Notes under the pieces: model-generated
What the model saw: only the letters and a program-made list of their open reading frames with translations
The model's database searches: none
Told to the model about the DNA's origin: nothing
Part shown: positions 47,327-59,581 of the stretch, in pieces
Numbering within the stretch: position 1 is the stretch's first letter
How the letters are laid out: the number at the start of each line of letters is the position of its first letter
Origin: Candidatus Alloenteromonas pullistercoris
GTDB taxonomy: Bacteria > Bacillota_I > Bacilli_A > RFN20 > CAG-826
Length of the DNA: 64,000 nucleotides
Direction: 5' to 3'
Assembly: GCA_017694295.1 (NCBI GenBank)
Contig: JADINA010000039.1
Span: forward strand, 1 to 64,000
Translations under genes and position numbers: made by a program

Positions 47327-47330
47327 AGCC

Positions 47331-47412
47331 GCGTGAAAAGCAAAGCCAGGGAAACCTGGCGGCGCAAAACTAAAGGGCCTACCCCGAATCGGAACGGCAG
47401 CCAGTTACCCCG
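47331..47412 (+). ncRNA. Cyclic di-GMP-I (GEMM) riboswitch aptamer 1
   Basis: AAAAGCAAAGCCAGGgaaaCCTGGCGGCGCAAAACTAAAGGGCCTA..GGCAGCCAGTTACC; P2 GCCAGG/CCTGGC with GAAA loop. Confidence 0.88.
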
Positions 47413-47570
47413 GAAGGAAGCGAAGCCGAGCTTCGTGGGCAACTGAGCGCGGTCTAGCCTCTTTCCCGATAAGGGCTGAAGGCCTTTTTCCCCGGAAAAG
47501 CGATTCCAATGGTATGTCCGGGGAGGATGCCGAGCGCGGATAATGTCCGCGGCCTGGAGGTTTTTTCGCT

Positions 47571-48548
47571 TTGGCCAAGGAAGACAAAATCAAAAAGCCG
47601 AAGGAGAAGAAGCCACGCAAGCAAGGCAAAGGCGAGAGCCTGCCGAAGATCGACGCCCCGGGGATGCTTGGTCAAAGCACGCCGGAGAAAGTCGCCAAAA
47701 GGCATAGGCGCCGCACCATCGCCGCTTTCGTGGCCTCGATAAGCTCCGCGGTTTTGATCGCATTATCGATCATCGCCTTTTTGGGCCGGGTTTCCGGCAA
47801 TTTCACCGTGACCATCGACCCCCGGGACTACACCAACCGCCTGACCCTGAGTCAAGGGATAGACGGATCGCGCACGCCGACGTTATTAGGCTCTGGCATC
47901 GAAAACGCCAAGCCGATCGCCGCAAGCGAGGTGTTCCGCTACCTCGAAAACGAGGTCTACCCGCTTCCGAAACAAGAGGCGGAGGGCTCGCATAACTACG
48001 AGGTCGGCGAGGGCGAGGAGCGAAGCGCCTACGCCATGGTCTACACCTTCTACCTCCACAACCAAACCGACGAAGAGCTGCCCTACCGGCATAGCTTCTT
48101 CATCGAGAGTTACAGCTCCCCGACCAACGACGCGCTTGAGCCATATGAGTATCTGCGCATCGCCCTTTACGTAAACGAGCCCGCCTCCTTCCCCGGGGAC
48201 GAGGAAACGCACGAAAAGGAAATATATGGGCTGGAATCGAATTACCCGGGCACGGGCGAGGGGGAAAACGACACGCGTGAATGCGTCTCCTCCTTCACTG
48301 GCCCAGTCGATGAAGACGGCAACCCGATAACCCGCTACCCCCGCACCGATTCGGGGGAGGAGAGTAGCGGCTATTGCACCCCCTTCATCGACTCCACCGG
48401 CCACATAATCGACGAAACCAGGACCATCCTCCCGCTGCAGACGCTCCGCTACACGGTCGTCGCCTGGCTTGAGGGCTTCGACCCCGAATGCCGGGGAAAG
48501 GCCCCCGAGGGGGCTTCCATGACTTTCCGGATGGAGTTCGACGCCTGA
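47571..48548 (+). CDS. Membrane-anchored surface protein of unknown function (TTG start)
   Basis: GGAGG SD at 47556-47560, TTG at 47571; TM RTIAAFVASISSAVLIALSIIAFLG followed by extracytoplasmic domain. Confidence 0.75.
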   Translation: MAKEDKIKKPKEKKPRKQGKGESLPKIDAPGMLGQSTPEKVAKRHRRRTIAAFVASISSAVLIALSIIAFLGRVSGNFTVTIDPRDYTNRLTLSQGIDGSRTPTLLGSGIENAKPIAASEVFRYLENEVYPLPKQEAEGSHNYEVGEGEERSAYAMVYTFYLHNQTDEELPYRHSFFIESYSSPTNDALEPYEYLRIALYVNEPASFPGDEETHEKEIYGLESNYPGTGEGENDTRECVSSFTGPVDEDGNPITRYPRTDSGEESSGYCTPFIDSTGHIIDETRTILPLQTLRYTVVAWLEGFDPECRGKAPEGASMTFRMEFDA

Positions 48549-53332: not shown

Positions 53333-54160
53333 ATGGTTAGGAAATGGGCCTCGCGCCTAGTCACCCTCTTCCTCCTCCTTTTGGTGGGCTTTGTCGGCTA
53401 TTGCCAGGTGTCGATGGTCGTGACGATGAACAAAAACTATGGGGTCCCGAGCGTCTTCGGCTACTCCTTCCTCTACGTCGCCACCGACTCGATGGAGGGC
53501 GACCTCCCCGACTCCCTCCCCGTCGGCACCGGCATCGTCATCCAAGACGTCGACCCCCATTCGATCGCCCCCGGGGACGTCATCACCTTCTATTATCCGG
53601 CCATCAAGGCCCCCGACACCCACCGAGTCCATGAGATAACCGAGGACGAAGACGGACATTTAACCTTCTACACCCGCGGCGACAACCTTAACGCCCAGCT
53701 GTCCAACGGGCAATGGGACGAAAACTATAGGGAAATCGTCCCCCAGGAGCATTACATCGGCAAGGTCGTTAGCCACTCCAAGGCCTTCGGCATCTTCCTC
53801 ACCTACGTCTCCCCCCAAGTGCCAAGCGACCACAACCACGCCAGGTGGCTTTTCCCCCTGCTCGTCATCTTGCCACTCGCCATCTGCGCCGCCATCACCA
53901 TCGCCTCGACGGTGAGGCAGCTTCGCAAGGAGAAAAAAGAGGAAAAGGCTGCTTTGCTTAAGGCGATGGAGGAAGAGGGCATCGACCAAACCGACGAGTC
54001 GCAGGTTTTCTCCTTTGAAGAGAAGTGGCGCTTCAAAAAGGAACTCCGCGAGCAATATGCGGAAGAAAAGGAAAAAGAGAGGAAGAGGCTGCTTAAAGAC
54101 ATGAAAAGGAAAAGGAAAAGCGAGGCCGAGGGGCCTATAATCAGGGAGGAAAAGCAATGA
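53333..54160 (+). CDS. sipW: Signal peptidase I, ER/SipW type
   Basis: YVATDSMEGDLPDSLPVGTGIVIQDV...GDVITFYYP...DTHRVHEI (Ser-His type); C-terminal TM. Confidence 0.85.
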   Translation: MVRKWASRLVTLFLLLLVGFVGYCQVSMVVTMNKNYGVPSVFGYSFLYVATDSMEGDLPDSLPVGTGIVIQDVDPHSIAPGDVITFYYPAIKAPDTHRVHEITEDEDGHLTFYTRGDNLNAQLSNGQWDENYREIVPQEHYIGKVVSHSKAFGIFLTYVSPQVPSDHNHARWLFPLLVILPLAICAAITIASTVRQLRKEKKEEKAALLKAMEEEGIDQTDESQVFSFEEKWRFKKELREQYAEEKEKERKRLLKDMKRKRKSEAEGPIIREEKQ

Positions 54161-55734
54161 GGAAAAGCATCATGGCCTATAGCGGCCTACTAGTCGCCTC
54201 CCTCTTCCTTTTGGGGCTAAACATCGGCTTCCTCCTTTTCATCCTCCTCATCCCCCTTTCCAGGGGCGAGGCGGTTGAAGGCGATAGGCTCGCCGCCTGC
54301 CTTTCCCTTTCCCTTACCGAGGTCGTCTTCGTCTTCCTTTCGGCCTTCTTCCTCCACCGCCGCCTAGTCTTGGGGCGGAAAAGGGAATTCCTGCTTGGAA
54401 GGTTTGGGGAAGCTAACGACATCTTGCTGGAATCGGAGATGGCCAAAGCCTTCGATCGCCTTAAGGGGGAAGGCAAGCAAAAACGCTTCGCCGTCGCCCT
54501 CAACATCCTCGGGCCCGATAGCCAAATGCTTTCCTCCTTCCAAGACGAGGTCAGGAGGAAAACCCTCCGTTTCGTCTATAACTGCCTTAAAGTCAATTTC
54601 CCCCTCGACCCAATCGGGATAAACGAGTCAAACGAGTTCCTCCTCGCCCACCTAGACGAGGACATGGAGGGCTTTTCCGCCGAGCTTCGCCGCTTCGCCT
54701 CCGGGCTAAGCGACTACTTCTCCCATAGCGGAGCCATCCCCTTTGCCACCATCCTCTTCGGCTTAAGCCAAAAGGGGGCGGAGGAAGGCAAGGCGGGGGT
54801 CGCCGCCTTCGAGGAGGCCGAATACGCCCTCCGCCACAACTCCAAAGCCCGCCTTAGCGGCGACGTCCTCCCCTTTAGCCACGACCTCATCGACCAAGAC
54901 GCCTCGATCCATTGGCTCGATCAAGACTTGGCGGGCGCGATAAACCGAGGCGAGTTCATCGTCTATTACCAAGGCAAAGTCGATTTGAAGACCGGCTCCT
55001 TCTACGGGGCCGAGGCCCTCATCAGGTGGAAGCACCCCCACCGCGGCATCCTCCCCCCAAGCGTCTTCGTCCCCTATTGCGAATCTAGCGGCAAAATCGT
55101 CGAGATCGACCATTTCGTCTTCAAATCGGTTTGCAAGACGCTTTCGAAATGGAAGGAAGACCCCGCCCTATGCCGCCTCATCGTCTCAGTCAACCTCTCC
55201 CGCCGCACCGTCTACGACCCCGATCTTCTTCCCTTTTTGGCCAAGACGACCGCTGAATACGGGGTCGACCCAAGCCAAATGGAAATCGAGCTGACCGAAT
55301 CGCTCGCGGCCGAGAACCTCGTCTTCATCTCCTCGGTCATCAGGAAGATAAAGGCGATGGGCTTCAAGACAAGCATCGACGACTTCGGCATCGGCTATTC
55401 CTCCCTTTCGGCGTTAAAGTCGATCCCCTATGACGTCTTGAAGATCGACAAGACCTTCATCGACGACATCGAGATCGGCGGCAAGTCGAAGGCGATGGTG
55501 AGCTCGATCGTGAGCTTGGTGCACGCCCTGGGGATGAAAGTCATCGCCGAGAGGGCCGAGTCGATGAGCCAGGTCGCCATCCTCTCCACCCTCGGGGTCG
55601 ACGCCGTCCAGGGCTATTACTTCTCCCGCCCCGTCGACCGGGCCCGCTTCGAGGTGCTCATAAACGAGGACAACAGGCGGAAGAAAGAGGAAAAAGCGAA
55701 GAAGAAGGAAAGCGCGAAGGAGGCAAAGGCATGA
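54157..55734 (+). CDS. EAL-domain c-di-GMP phosphodiesterase with degenerate GGDEF and N-terminal TMs
   Basis: GAEALIRWKHP, VSVNLSRRT, IELTES, SIDDFGIGYSSLSALKSIPYDVLKIDKTFI, QGYYFSRP; GGDEF position reads NESNEF. Confidence 0.92.
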   Translation: MRKSIMAYSGLLVASLFLLGLNIGFLLFILLIPLSRGEAVEGDRLAACLSLSLTEVVFVFLSAFFLHRRLVLGRKREFLLGRFGEANDILLESEMAKAFDRLKGEGKQKRFAVALNILGPDSQMLSSFQDEVRRKTLRFVYNCLKVNFPLDPIGINESNEFLLAHLDEDMEGFSAELRRFASGLSDYFSHSGAIPFATILFGLSQKGAEEGKAGVAAFEEAEYALRHNSKARLSGDVLPFSHDLIDQDASIHWLDQDLAGAINRGEFIVYYQGKVDLKTGSFYGAEALIRWKHPHRGILPPSVFVPYCESSGKIVEIDHFVFKSVCKTLSKWKEDPALCRLIVSVNLSRRTVYDPDLLPFLAKTTAEYGVDPSQMEIELTESLAAENLVFISSVIRKIKAMGFKTSIDDFGIGYSSLSALKSIPYDVLKIDKTFIDDIEIGGKSKAMVSSIVSLVHALGMKVIAERAESMSQVAILSTLGVDAVQGYYFSRPVDRARFEVLINEDNRRKKEEKAKKKESAKEAKA

Positions 55735-56450
55735 TTCTCATCATCGGCGAAAACGAAGACGCCATCCTCTATCTGCGTTCCCGCCTTGTCGACGAGCGTA
55801 AGGAAGTCGTCTTCCCCTCGCTCCAGGTATATCGGGGAAGGATGGGCAACGAGGAGGCGGCCATCGCCTCAATCGGCATCGGGCTCCCATTAGTCGCCAT
55901 AAACGTCGATAACCTGCTTCGGAAATACGAGCCCTACTTGGTTTTCAACGTCGGCTCCGTCGGGGCGATTAAGCCCTCCCTCCACCAAGGGGACGTCTTG
56001 ATCGCGGAACGTTATTACGCCCATGGCATCGACTATTCCGGGGACGGGAAAAACGTATACGGGCAGCTAAACGGCCTTCCGCCCTTCTTCGTCGCCGACA
56101 TGGGGCTATGCGCAAGCGCCGAGAAGGCGGCCTACGAGATCGGGGGACATTACGTCGAGAGGGGGTCGCTTCTTTCCTCCGACATCAGGATCTACGACGA
56201 TAAGCCGGTTTTTGACGATCTGCAAAGGCGCTTTGCCGGCAATTCGCGCCTCACCTGCCTCGATAACTGCTCCTACGCCATCGCGCTTTCTTGCTACTTG
56301 CATAACGCCTCCTTGCTAACCGTCAAATCCGTCAACTACGAATCGGGGGAGGAGTCGCAGCGGCTCAACTTCCGCCGCAAGGGGCTTGAGCTCATGCCCT
56401 TCGTCGGCAAAGTCGTCTCGGCGGTGTTGCTCCGCAACTCCAAAATCTAG
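55731..56450 (+). CDS. Nucleoside phosphorylase/MTA-SAH nucleosidase superfamily protein
   Basis: VVFPSLQVYRGRMGNEEAAIASIGIGLPLVAINVDNLL; LVFNVGSVGAIKPSLHQGDVLIAERYYAHGID. Confidence 0.8.
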   Translation: MILIIGENEDAILYLRSRLVDERKEVVFPSLQVYRGRMGNEEAAIASIGIGLPLVAINVDNLLRKYEPYLVFNVGSVGAIKPSLHQGDVLIAERYYAHGIDYSGDGKNVYGQLNGLPPFFVADMGLCASAEKAAYEIGGHYVERGSLLSSDIRIYDDKPVFDDLQRRFAGNSRLTCLDNCSYAIALSCYLHNASLLTVKSVNYESGEESQRLNFRRKGLELMPFVGKVVSAVLLRNSKI

Positions 56451-56490: not shown

Positions 56491-56518
56491 TTGCCAAGCG
56501 CCGGCAAACTTGTAAAAT
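56491..56518 (+). promoter_or_regulatory. Putative promoter of riboswitch-2 operon
   Basis: TTGCCA -16 nt- TAAAAT. Confidence 0.6.
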
Positions 56519-56523
56519 AGACC

Positions 56524-56604
56524 TTGTCAAAGGCAAACTTAGGGCGACCTAGGGGCGCAAAACTAAAGGGCCTCACGCAGGCAGCCAGCTACCGCAAATG
56601 ACAA
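56524..56604 (+). ncRNA. Cyclic di-GMP-I (GEMM) riboswitch aptamer 2
   Basis: TTGTCA AAGGCAAACTTAGGgcgaCCTAGGGGCGCAAAACTAAAGGGCCTCACGCAGGCAGCCAGCTACC..TGACAA; P1 TTGTCA/TGACAA, P2 with GCGA loop. Confidence 0.92.
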
Positions 56605-56605
56605 C

Positions 56606-59581
56606 ATGGACAGCCGGCAGAAAGCGCATAAAAGCCCAAAGGGGGCGAAAACCGCCCTCTTTTTCGCCTGCCTTGCCTCCTTCTTCTCCCTTACCCTTGG
56701 GCTAGGCGGAGTTACCTTAGCCGCCTATTTAAACGCCGTCGAGGCCAAGGAAAACGCCATCCTCGACTTCAATGACCTTAGCTCCTACTTCGCCAGGGTC
56801 GAGGAAAACGATGGCGAAAGGGTTTTCCACCTTAATGACGAAACCCATCTTCAAAACCTGCAAAGGCTCGTTTCCATCGGTTTGTTTGGCCCTAGCGACA
56901 CCTTCGTCCTCGATAACGACATCTCCTGCACCGGCACACTTTACCCAATCGGGACCGACGACATGCCCTTCGACTCCACCTTCAACGGCAACGGCCACGT
57001 CATCTCCAATTTGCACGTCATATGCGCGGATGGGCGCGACGCCGGGCTTTTCGGCTACACCTCGATCAACTCCAGCGTCAAAAATCTCATCCTAAGCGCC
57101 CCAAAAATCGAGGTGACCGCAAATTCCAACGATTTCAACGACGACGGGAAAGGCATATCGGGCTCCCCCATAGAGAAGACCTATGGCCCGTTGGCGTCCC
57201 TTATGCCGGAAATCAACTTCGTTAGCCAGGATAACATGGCCGTCGACGGCAGGATAAACGTCAAAAATGGGACCCAACCCGGGCAGACCGCCGTCATCAC
57301 GGGTTTCCCCGATAGCCTAAGCTCCGGGGAAGCCGAGGTCGAAATACTTTACGAATCCAGCGACGAAAACCTATTAACGCTTACCCAAACCACCGACGGC
57401 TACCAGGCCGAGTGCAAACCCAACCCCGAATCCAACGCCCCGAACTTCGACCTTTACCCGGTAACGGTCGACGCCAAGGCGCAATACGAGGTTAACGGGG
57501 TGTTCGGCTATTACGTGCTTGAGCGTTACCAGTTCAACATCCTCGGCAACGGCAACGTCTCGACCGCCGTGACCGAGATAGACGACCCCGACGACGAAAG
57601 CGACAATCCGGTCCAGATAACCGTCCATTCCGGGGCGTTTAAGACCATCCACCCCGATTACGATGAGCATAACCTCAACGTCGGCTTCTTCATCGGCCAT
57701 TGCGACGGCTCGGCCAACCACCTCGGCCTTTACGGGGGCAACACCAACTCAACCGGCCAAAACGGGACCATCGTCATCAACTCCGACTCCCGCGTAAGCG
57801 CCTATTCGGCCAGGACGCTAATCGGCAAGACCAGGAAAGACAACCCGGTCGACGCCTCCGCCGGGGACACGATGAACATCATCTACGATTACCGTGGGGC
57901 CATCAACGGCACCCCCGACCAAAACGGGCTCATCCACGATTTCGAGCTGAAGGTTAAAGACTACGAATACGGGCATGCAAACTTTGGATCGGGCTATGGC
58001 TTTGGCTCATCGATTAGCGACTACTCCAATAACGGCAGCCCCGATCAGCCGGTGACCGATTCCGATTCCCTCAAGCAGCAGCAAAACGCCGAAACCATGA
58101 CCGAAAACGTCGTGACCAACCCATCGATGAGGGAATACTCCTCCTTCTACCCGGGTACCAACCAAACGCTTGCCGACTCCACCACCGAGGCCTATAAGCC
58201 ATCCTCAAGCAACTGGGAGGTCGGGGAATACTCCGATAACGCCGACACCGCCGAAAGCGATCCCGGCAGCTTCAACGCCCAGGTCATAGACGGCGGCCTT
58301 GGTGCCGGGACGTGGACGAAGCTAAACGAATTCATCAAGCAATATTGGTTCCTGGGGACTTATACTTACCATCATCAGCTTCGCCTAACTCGGGGATACA
58401 ACATCAACAACGGCTTCAAGATCTGGTCGACCAAAAACCTTTCGCCGATCTTCACCGAGAACCTCTTCTACATTAATTTCCATGTCTCCTACGTCGCGAC
58501 CCGCAAAAAGGGGACGGCCGAGAACCAAAATAGCTTTCAGATACTGTTCAATTCCTACAACCCAGAGGTCCGGGGCTATGACAAATGGTCGTTGGGAGAT
58601 TTAGTCGGCTACAATCCCTACCCCGATGAATGGACGTCCTCTTATTTGCAATACCTTTTCTGGCAGGACCTATCCAACCCCCAAAACGTCGACTTCACCG
58701 ACGGCGGCCAGCTCAATGCGCTATATAACCCTGCCGACCATCCGATCATCGACGACGGCAAGCTCCATAGCGACGTCATCACCTTGACCATCGACCAGCA
58801 AAACGGCACTTGGTGGAGCAACGCGTTCCAGTCGATCCGTAATTGGTGGAAAGATCTTTGGAACGGGGGAAGCGAGGAGCAAACCGAAAACCGCGAGGCC
58901 CGTTACCCGATGTTCGCCTTCGGCATGGGATCCAACGTCCGCCCCAATGGCGGAATCTATGCCTCCGAGGACCATCAATCAACCGCGAATTACTACGCCG
59001 ACTTGATTTATGATGAAAACCAGCAGACATATCAAAATTCGCGCTTCGTCAACTCCGCGGTTCCCGGAAGCACGATCGCCGACTTAAGGGGAACCCGCCT
59101 ATTTGACTCCGATAACGGCGCCTACCAAACCTATGCCCCGTCGGGAAGCAGCGAGGAAGGCTGGGTCGGGACAGCTTTTGGCAGCGGCAACCACTATAAC
59201 GACAGCGTGCGAGGATATTACAACAATCAGGAACGCGGCTATTTCAATTCCTACTTCAAGGTCGAAAACGGCACCAAGCTTTACATCCGCGACTTCCAGA
59301 TCACCTTCACCAACCGGCTTGGCAACACCGAGGACATCATCTACAAAGTCGACTTCGTCCCAAACACCGACCTAGGCTTCGACGAGAACTCGCAAACCTG
59401 GAACGCCTGGCCGGACGATAGCAACGTCCAGATCGGCTTTAACATGGAAAAAACCGACGGCGGGGTCAATTTCCGCTTCTACAGGGACAATAGCAACAAC
59501 GTCTACGGTTATTACAGCAACGCCGCCTATTCGCTTACCAACAACTCCGGATACGACGACGCGATTTTGGCGCAGGGGTAA
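56606..59581 (+). CDS. Large secreted/membrane surface protein with GLUG-like segment
   Basis: TM ALFFACLASFFSLTLGLGGVTLAAYLNAVEAKENAI; DSTFNGNGHVISNLHV..AGLFGYT..SVKNLIL. Confidence 0.75.
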   Translation: MDSRQKAHKSPKGAKTALFFACLASFFSLTLGLGGVTLAAYLNAVEAKENAILDFNDLSSYFARVEENDGERVFHLNDETHLQNLQRLVSIGLFGPSDTFVLDNDISCTGTLYPIGTDDMPFDSTFNGNGHVISNLHVICADGRDAGLFGYTSINSSVKNLILSAPKIEVTANSNDFNDDGKGISGSPIEKTYGPLASLMPEINFVSQDNMAVDGRINVKNGTQPGQTAVITGFPDSLSSGEAEVEILYESSDENLLTLTQTTDGYQAECKPNPESNAPNFDLYPVTVDAKAQYEVNGVFGYYVLERYQFNILGNGNVSTAVTEIDDPDDESDNPVQITVHSGAFKTIHPDYDEHNLNVGFFIGHCDGSANHLGLYGGNTNSTGQNGTIVINSDSRVSAYSARTLIGKTRKDNPVDASAGDTMNIIYDYRGAINGTPDQNGLIHDFELKVKDYEYGHANFGSGYGFGSSISDYSNNGSPDQPVTDSDSLKQQQNAETMTENVVTNPSMREYSSFYPGTNQTLADSTTEAYKPSSSNWEVGEYSDNADTAESDPGSFNAQVIDGGLGAGTWTKLNEFIKQYWFLGTYTYHHQLRLTRGYNINNGFKIWSTKNLSPIFTENLFYINFHVSYVATRKKGTAENQNSFQILFNSYNPEVRGYDKWSLGDLVGYNPYPDEWTSSYLQYLFWQDLSNPQNVDFTDGGQLNALYNPADHPIIDDGKLHSDVITLTIDQQNGTWWSNAFQSIRNWWKDLWNGGSEEQTENREARYPMFAFGMGSNVRPNGGIYASEDHQSTANYYADLIYDENQQTYQNSRFVNSAVPGSTIADLRGTRLFDSDNGAYQTYAPSGSSEEGWVGTAFGSGNHYNDSVRGYYNNQERGYFNSYFKVENGTKLYIRDFQITFTNRLGNTEDIIYKVDFVPNTDLGFDENSQTWNAWPDDSNVQIGFNMEKTDGGVNFRFYRDNSNNVYGYYSNAAYSLTNNSGYDDAILAQG

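Follow-up and report, generated by a model that had tools for sequence, protein, structure and literature searches.

A c-di-GMP-I aptamer as the putative whole leader of a Shine-Dalgarno-less surface-protein gene: a candidate switch of translation initiation

A c-di-GMP-I riboswitch aptamer appears to fill the leader of a gene for a 991-aa secreted or surface-type protein in the window, the 64,000-nt stretch of Candidatus Alloenteromonas pullistercoris DNA analysed here. The explanation that best accounts for this layout, which is held tentatively and with somewhat less than even confidence, is an aptamer-only riboswitch that gates the initiation of translation, with c-di-GMP turning the gene ON. 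The occurrence of the ultra-compact layout in several related genomes suggests that the sensor itself gates the ribosome. If it works, the leader would rank with the smallest c-di-GMP-I leaders in nature, with about 80 nt that are all aptamer, and it would couple ligand sensing to a start codon lacking a Shine-Dalgarno (SD) sequence without a separate platform, which bears on the c-di-GMP control of surface-protein genes in a little-studied lineage.

Identity and conservation of the aptamer

RF01051 (c-di-GMP-I) was matched by cmscan at 56522-56596 of the forward strand over the full model (1-87), at 52.9 bits (E 1.7e-7), well above the gathering score of 35, and the element is thus a c-di-GMP-I aptamer, as the first-pass annotation had recognised in the leader from the letters alone. 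The sequences on which that annotation relied, namely TTGTCA (56524-56529), TGACAA (56599-56604), TAAAAT (56513-56518) and ATG (56606), all stand where it had placed them. Its picture of a compact leader also stood, but its extension of the aptamer to 1 nt before the ATG did not, the Rfam match ending at 56596, 9 nt before the start codon.

Within the aptamer, P2 is a hairpin of 56538-56543 with 56548-56553 closed by a GCGA loop, whose pairs are kept across five genomes, and P3, delineated by cmscan and pair conservation, joins 56561-56564 and 56568-56572 to 56580-56590. The bases expected to contact the ligand, G56533, A56560 and C56592, were located by hand alignment and correspond, in what we take to be the Vc2 numbering, to G20, A47 and C92, all three of which therefore have their equivalents in the window aptamer. 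These ligand-contact positions are named in PMC11218506. Binding of c-di-GMP by the window aptamer is predicted.

Orthologs of the regulated gene were found in three genomes of the same genus (G032, G025 and G031), whose proteins are 53, 44 and 41% identical to that of the window and whose ATG follows the Rfam end of the aptamer by 9, 9 and 8 nt, respectively, compared with 9 nt in the window; the start in these three orthologs is likewise not preceded by an SD, and a diverged gene copy in G003 has its likely ATG 16 nt from the aptamer. Promoter and aptamer can be aligned in all five genomes. Over 73 columns, the aptamer shows a mean column identity of 94%, all 16 core pairs are paired in 100% of the cells, and two P2 pairs are changed on both sides, in a compensated manner, among the four distinct sequences. 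Set against a protein identity of only 41-53%, this retention of the aptamer and its pairs is read by us as pointing to selection on the aptamer. The orthologous ORFs also show raised synonymous conservation at their 5' end (about 80% vs 50% overall), which was set aside as an RNA signal, because it is spread over 45 codons in which amino-acid identity is equally high, and it may therefore reflect the exchange of a 5' module.

Promoter and transcription start

A promoter was placed by scanning at 56491-56518 of the forward strand, with a -35 element TTGCCA (56491-56496), a 16-nt spacer and a -10 element TAAAAT (56513-56518), and it is kept in the four other genomes. Transcription would start 7 nt after the -10, at 56525 ± 1 (56524-56526), which is the edge of the aptamer and agrees with the phase-locking seen in the family. 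The family set comprised 137 c-di-GMP-I aptamer loci, 134 of which were used for the -10 phase, and these loci share descent and are not independent events. Under a strict rule, which asks for a TATAAT-like hexamer (≥5/6) ending 12-14 nt ahead of the [AG]GCA aptamer core, 89/134 family aptamers are in phase against a three-position background of 0.052. With a laxer cut, the -10 lies 11-15 nt before the core in 122/134, and 69 of these 122 loci carry a -35 match of 5/6 or 6/6, compared with 3 in shuffles. The window -10 ends 13 nt before the core, which is the modal distance of the family, so the early proposal of TAAAAT as the -10, with a start near 56525, is borne out by the -10/-35 phase-locking at the family level.

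A further 42 loci, mostly from one other genus of the family, include 19 that are phase-locked under the strict rule. In contrast, the phase was observed in only 3/27 aptamers from other families of the class (Fisher p 1.3e-7 vs the family), and we therefore consider promoter-aptamer fusion a trait of this family; in these 27 aptamers the bases at the P1 position are often AATG/CATT and an SD often lies downstream. Since the -10 is phase-locked to the core, transcripts are expected to begin at the aptamer edge, which would leave the window with a leader of about 80 nt, all aptamer.

The family aptamers with a phase-locked -10 include L002, L046, L047 and L049. As a separate observation, a TATAAT-like hexamer ends 5-11 nt before the ATG in 8/64 ORFs of the window genome (G000), e.g., tgTATAATggccttgtATG, which suggests leaderless mRNAs for several of its genes; the excess is small there (8 vs 5 at a control offset) and is clearer in some relatives.

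Start codon and its distance from the aptamer

The regulated ORF (56606-59581, forward strand) encodes a protein, P0001, that carries a hydrophobic segment at the N-terminus and matches no family in Pfam or NCBIfam. Its start at 56606 fits the conservation of residues H8, K9 and K12 in the orthologs, and an in-frame ATG, GTG or TTG start further upstream is excluded by a TAA at 56564-56566, inside the aptamer. The 13-nt spacer from the ligand-contacting C to the AUG (56593-56605) is free of an SD, as had been noticed at first reading, and no SD-like tetramer occurs 4-20 nt before the ATG. Such a start is normal for the riboswitch genes of the family rather than peculiar to the window, since an SD was found in 11/68 of those with an ATG within 60 nt, compared with 111/230 control ORFs (p 1.3e-6). 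About half of the ORFs of the window genome have an SD, and the 16S of both G025 and G031 has an intact anti-SD, CCTCC.

Nineteen SD-less loci from four genera have their ATG 2-14 nt after the aptamer and no strong aptamer-linked terminator; except in the orthologs, the start codon was chosen by eye on the basis of the N-terminal sequence. One of the nineteen, G189b, shows only a weak 6-pair terminator match. The gap between the ligand-contacting C and the AUG is 12 or 13 nt in 12/19, and a smaller gap is found only at G093, where another in-frame ATG follows downstream. The near absence of gaps below 12 nt suggests that the ribosome needs space next to the folded aptamer, and the recurrence of the 12-13-nt gap in several genera makes it testable how close a folded aptamer can sit to an SD-less start codon.

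Anti-aptamer sequence is present in the first codons of G093, G118, G187/G188 and G190e (ATG at 16 nt), with p ≤0.04 against codon shuffles. In L272 (G190e), a nearly perfect anti-aptamer to GGATAGCCAGTTGCC, namely GGCAAACTGCTATCC, occupies codons ~3-8 (duplex -25 kcal/mol, p 0.007-0.012); it would be an expression platform that apparently lies within a signal-peptide coding region. In G118 (G118:C61:13585-13661), which is counted in addition to the nineteen loci, an anti-aptamer strand GTAGCTGGC and the ATTTCTTTT that follows it fall in codons ~12-15 and may form a terminator within the ORF. The corresponding pairing of the aptamer 3' strand with the coding sequence, common in relatives, was tried for the window gene and rejected, its p being 0.65 against codon shuffles.

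P1 register and a competing helix

The best-paired register in the family joins the base 5 before the core to the base after the ligand-contacting C, which presumably matches G13-C93 of Vc2. Among 132 family aptamers, pairs 1 and 2 of this canonical P1 covary above shuffles (z 6.2 and 3.3), and pairs 3 and 4 are not above them (z 1.5 and 0.9). Judged by this covariation, the P1 of the family is about 2 bp long, as expected with transcription starting there. In the window, canonical P1 (56525-56594) has two pairs only, U56525.G56594 and G56526-C56593.

The first-pass annotation had assigned P1 to TTGTCA paired with TGACAA (56524-56604). The six-base complementarity was upheld: it exceeds that of control ORF starts with p 0.016 for those of the same genome and 0.013 for all controls together, modest values that come after trying a few pairing hypotheses; its identity as canonical P1 was rejected, since it lies outside the covarying register. 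Because both use the same 5' bases, this helix competes with canonical P1 and excludes it, and a start at 56525/56526 would cost it one or two of its six pairs. Its counterparts vary: a 6-bp helix in G031 covers the AUG and includes a U-A to C-G change (p 0.03-0.04), G032 and G025 retain UGAC only, 4 bp with the start codon included (p ~0.2), and G019, of the same genus, has a 6-bp helix of the 5' end with ACGGCA, which includes the A of AUG. No counterpart was found in G003, and the TGACAA half is not conserved in place among the orthologs.

From this helix, the view follows that c-di-GMP stabilises TTGTCA/TGACAA 1 nt before the AUG, or a version containing the AUG in relatives, and so blocks the 30S subunit, which would make the gene OFF with ligand. 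We regard this direct occlusion, first put forward as P1 formation over the ribosome entry region, as less likely than the ON model favoured below, but as a serious rival to it. The six Watson-Crick pairs (p 0.013-0.016), which are compatible with P2 and P3 in a forced fold, the AUG-covering version in G031 and the lack of any other platform visible in the leader would suit it; however, the helix is off the register that covaries across 132 aptamers while drawing on the same 5' bases, falls to 4 pairs in G032, is convincing in none of G003, G116, G089 and G190:C26, and would be trimmed by the proposed transcription start. Occlusion would also give no reason for a minimum gap of 12 nt, and the sign that it implies is opposite to that of most paralogs, which carry terminators.

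In the free fold of the window leader, the AUG pairs with the aptamer with a probability of 0.86, for which p is 0.03 against natural ORF starts and 0.11 against codon shuffles. When the aptamer is forced, the AUG opens in the window genome, is unchanged in G032 and closes in G031; the thermodynamic prediction of the switch sign was dropped because of this disagreement among orthologs.

Terminators and transcriptional control

In 84/133 family loci, compared with 5-13 in shuffles, the aptamer 3' strand also serves as the 5' arm of an intrinsic terminator. Since the two structures share this strand, ligand-stabilised folding should, by the established logic of strand exchange, prevent termination, and these 84/133 loci are predicted ON switches. 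No terminator using the aptamer strand was found at the window locus or in its orthologs, in keeping with the first impression that the leader lacks a separate expression platform.

Inside the window ORF, a stem scan revealed a terminator-like hairpin at 56641-56664 of the forward strand (GGGGGCG-AAAAC-CGCCCTC-TTTTT). Control of transcription, either by this hairpin or by Rho-dependent termination of the untranslated message, is quite improbable as an account of the window: the 7-bp GC stem followed by TTTTT, and the clear anti-aptamer terminator-like stem in codons ~12-15 of G118, lend it some substance, but the window stem involves no aptamer strand and has no counterpart at that place in the orthologs, for which reason it was rejected as an expression platform, and terminator-like stems are common by chance, with 32 found in the window sequence vs 22.8 expected.

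Two further features were noted among the terminators. In many long-leader loci, GGATGATAGGC recurs right before the anti-aptamer strand of the terminator, for example at G175:C8:42710, G173:C13:9513 and G072:C19:4954. In a second aptamer subclass (G020:C117, G021:C4, G030:C9, G167:C43 and similar), the terminators share a loop GCUUUGC that complements the conserved GCAAA motif in the aptamer.

Proposed mechanism

According to the preferred reading, an aptamer-only switch of translation initiation that is ON with ligand, transcription would start at about 56525 and yield an RNA with almost no P1 and an SD-less AUG 13 nt after C56592. In the absence of c-di-GMP, the spacer and the start-codon region would be paired with the loose 5' end, the aptamer 3' strand or both, which would hinder the entry of the ribosome, the competing pairing being UUGUCA with UGACAA in the window and with the AUG itself in relatives. 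With c-di-GMP, the canonical core (G56526-C56593, P2 and P3) would take these strands, and the 12-13-nt spacer and the AUG would be left free, so that the surface-protein gene would be turned ON.

Both the level of control, translation, and the sign, ON, are what we infer for the window. Three points favour ON: the shifted helix and the canonical register are mutually exclusive; gaps below 12 nt are nearly absent, a limit that occlusion would not need; and the paralogs seem to be wired ON (84/133), an analogy drawn from paralogs with another output, namely terminators. The spacing between aptamer and ATG, kept in orthologs that are otherwise diverged, also speaks for the ON model; against it, the strands that pair with the start region differ between orthologs, the pairing of the 3' strand (p 0.65) and, by codon shuffles, of the AUG (p 0.11) is not significant in the window, and forcing the aptamer fails to open the AUG in G032 and G031. 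A broader version, by which a lineage-wide design fuses promoter, P1-less aptamer and SD-less start at fixed spacing, the aptamer and the first codons make up the entire riboswitch, and a ligand-controlled register shift of the 5' end determines whether the start codon is free, with no dedicated platform, is conceivable but doubtful.

Comparison with known riboswitches

The window element agrees with the c-di-GMP-I (GEMM-I) class, RF01051, in its score above gathering, P2, P3, the GNRA-type loop and the G20/A47/C92 equivalents, and departs from it in a P1 of about 2 bp, attributed to transcription starting there, and in having no platform between aptamer and AUG. Vc1 and Vc2 of Vibrio cholerae belong to the same aptamer class, but their aptamer-to-start-codon regions measure 200 and 224 nt (PMC11218506), whereas the entire window leader would measure about 80 nt; for Bc1 of B. 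thuringiensis, about 220 nt with two terminators are given (PMC11218506). The title of Inuzuka 2018, as cited in PMC11218506, speaks of translational repression of a c-di-GMP riboswitch by masking of a distant ribosome-binding site.

Direct-occlusion riboswitches (group 1, PMC10907184) resemble the window in combining aptamer and output in one short leader with a probable translational output, but they embed the ribosome-binding site or SD in the aptamer, whereas the window leader has no SD and ligand occlusion here is putative. Strand-exchange riboswitches (group 3, PMC10907184), among which the terminator paralogs of the family are counted, are alike in that an aptamer strand has an alternative downstream partner. 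In the window, this partner would be the spacer and start-codon region rather than a terminator arm of the kind found in 84/133 relatives, and its support is modest, with p 0.013-0.016 for pairing of the 5' strand, 0.03-0.11 for the AUG and 0.65 for the 3' strand.

Genomic neighbourhood

Downstream of the regulated gene, two proteins with an N-terminal ...ATYAWF motif are encoded (59587 and 60534), and the locus presumably resembles the TasA/camelysin type of surface-fibre locus. In other genera, the aptamer is followed by an AWF-type gene of ~260-300 aa and then by a P0001 homolog, usually with a terminator between, and in the window P0001 comes first and the AWF genes after. The missing terminator would be accounted for if a rearrangement had moved the second gene up to the aptamer. 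That the aptamer is a relic, left behind without regulatory function when P0001 came to lie directly after it, matches this gene order but is highly improbable given the 94% column identity and complete retention of pairs beside a protein 41-53% identical.

Only two c-di-GMP-I aptamers were detected in the assembly of the window genome (87% complete), both inside the window. The second (47329-47412, 63 bits) has a leader of ~160 nt that leads to a TTG start (47571) with GGAGG before it. The anti-aptamer strand of this locus (47329-47573), GGGCAACTG, also occurs in G003, G025, G031 and G032 and has no T-run right after it. Between the two aptamers lie genes for an archaeal/SipW-type signal peptidase (from 53333), an EAL-domain c-di-GMP phosphodiesterase (from 54157) and an MTA/SAH-nucleosidase-like protein (from 55731), and the placement of these genes (53333-56450) between two c-di-GMP riboswitches suggests feedback on the signal.
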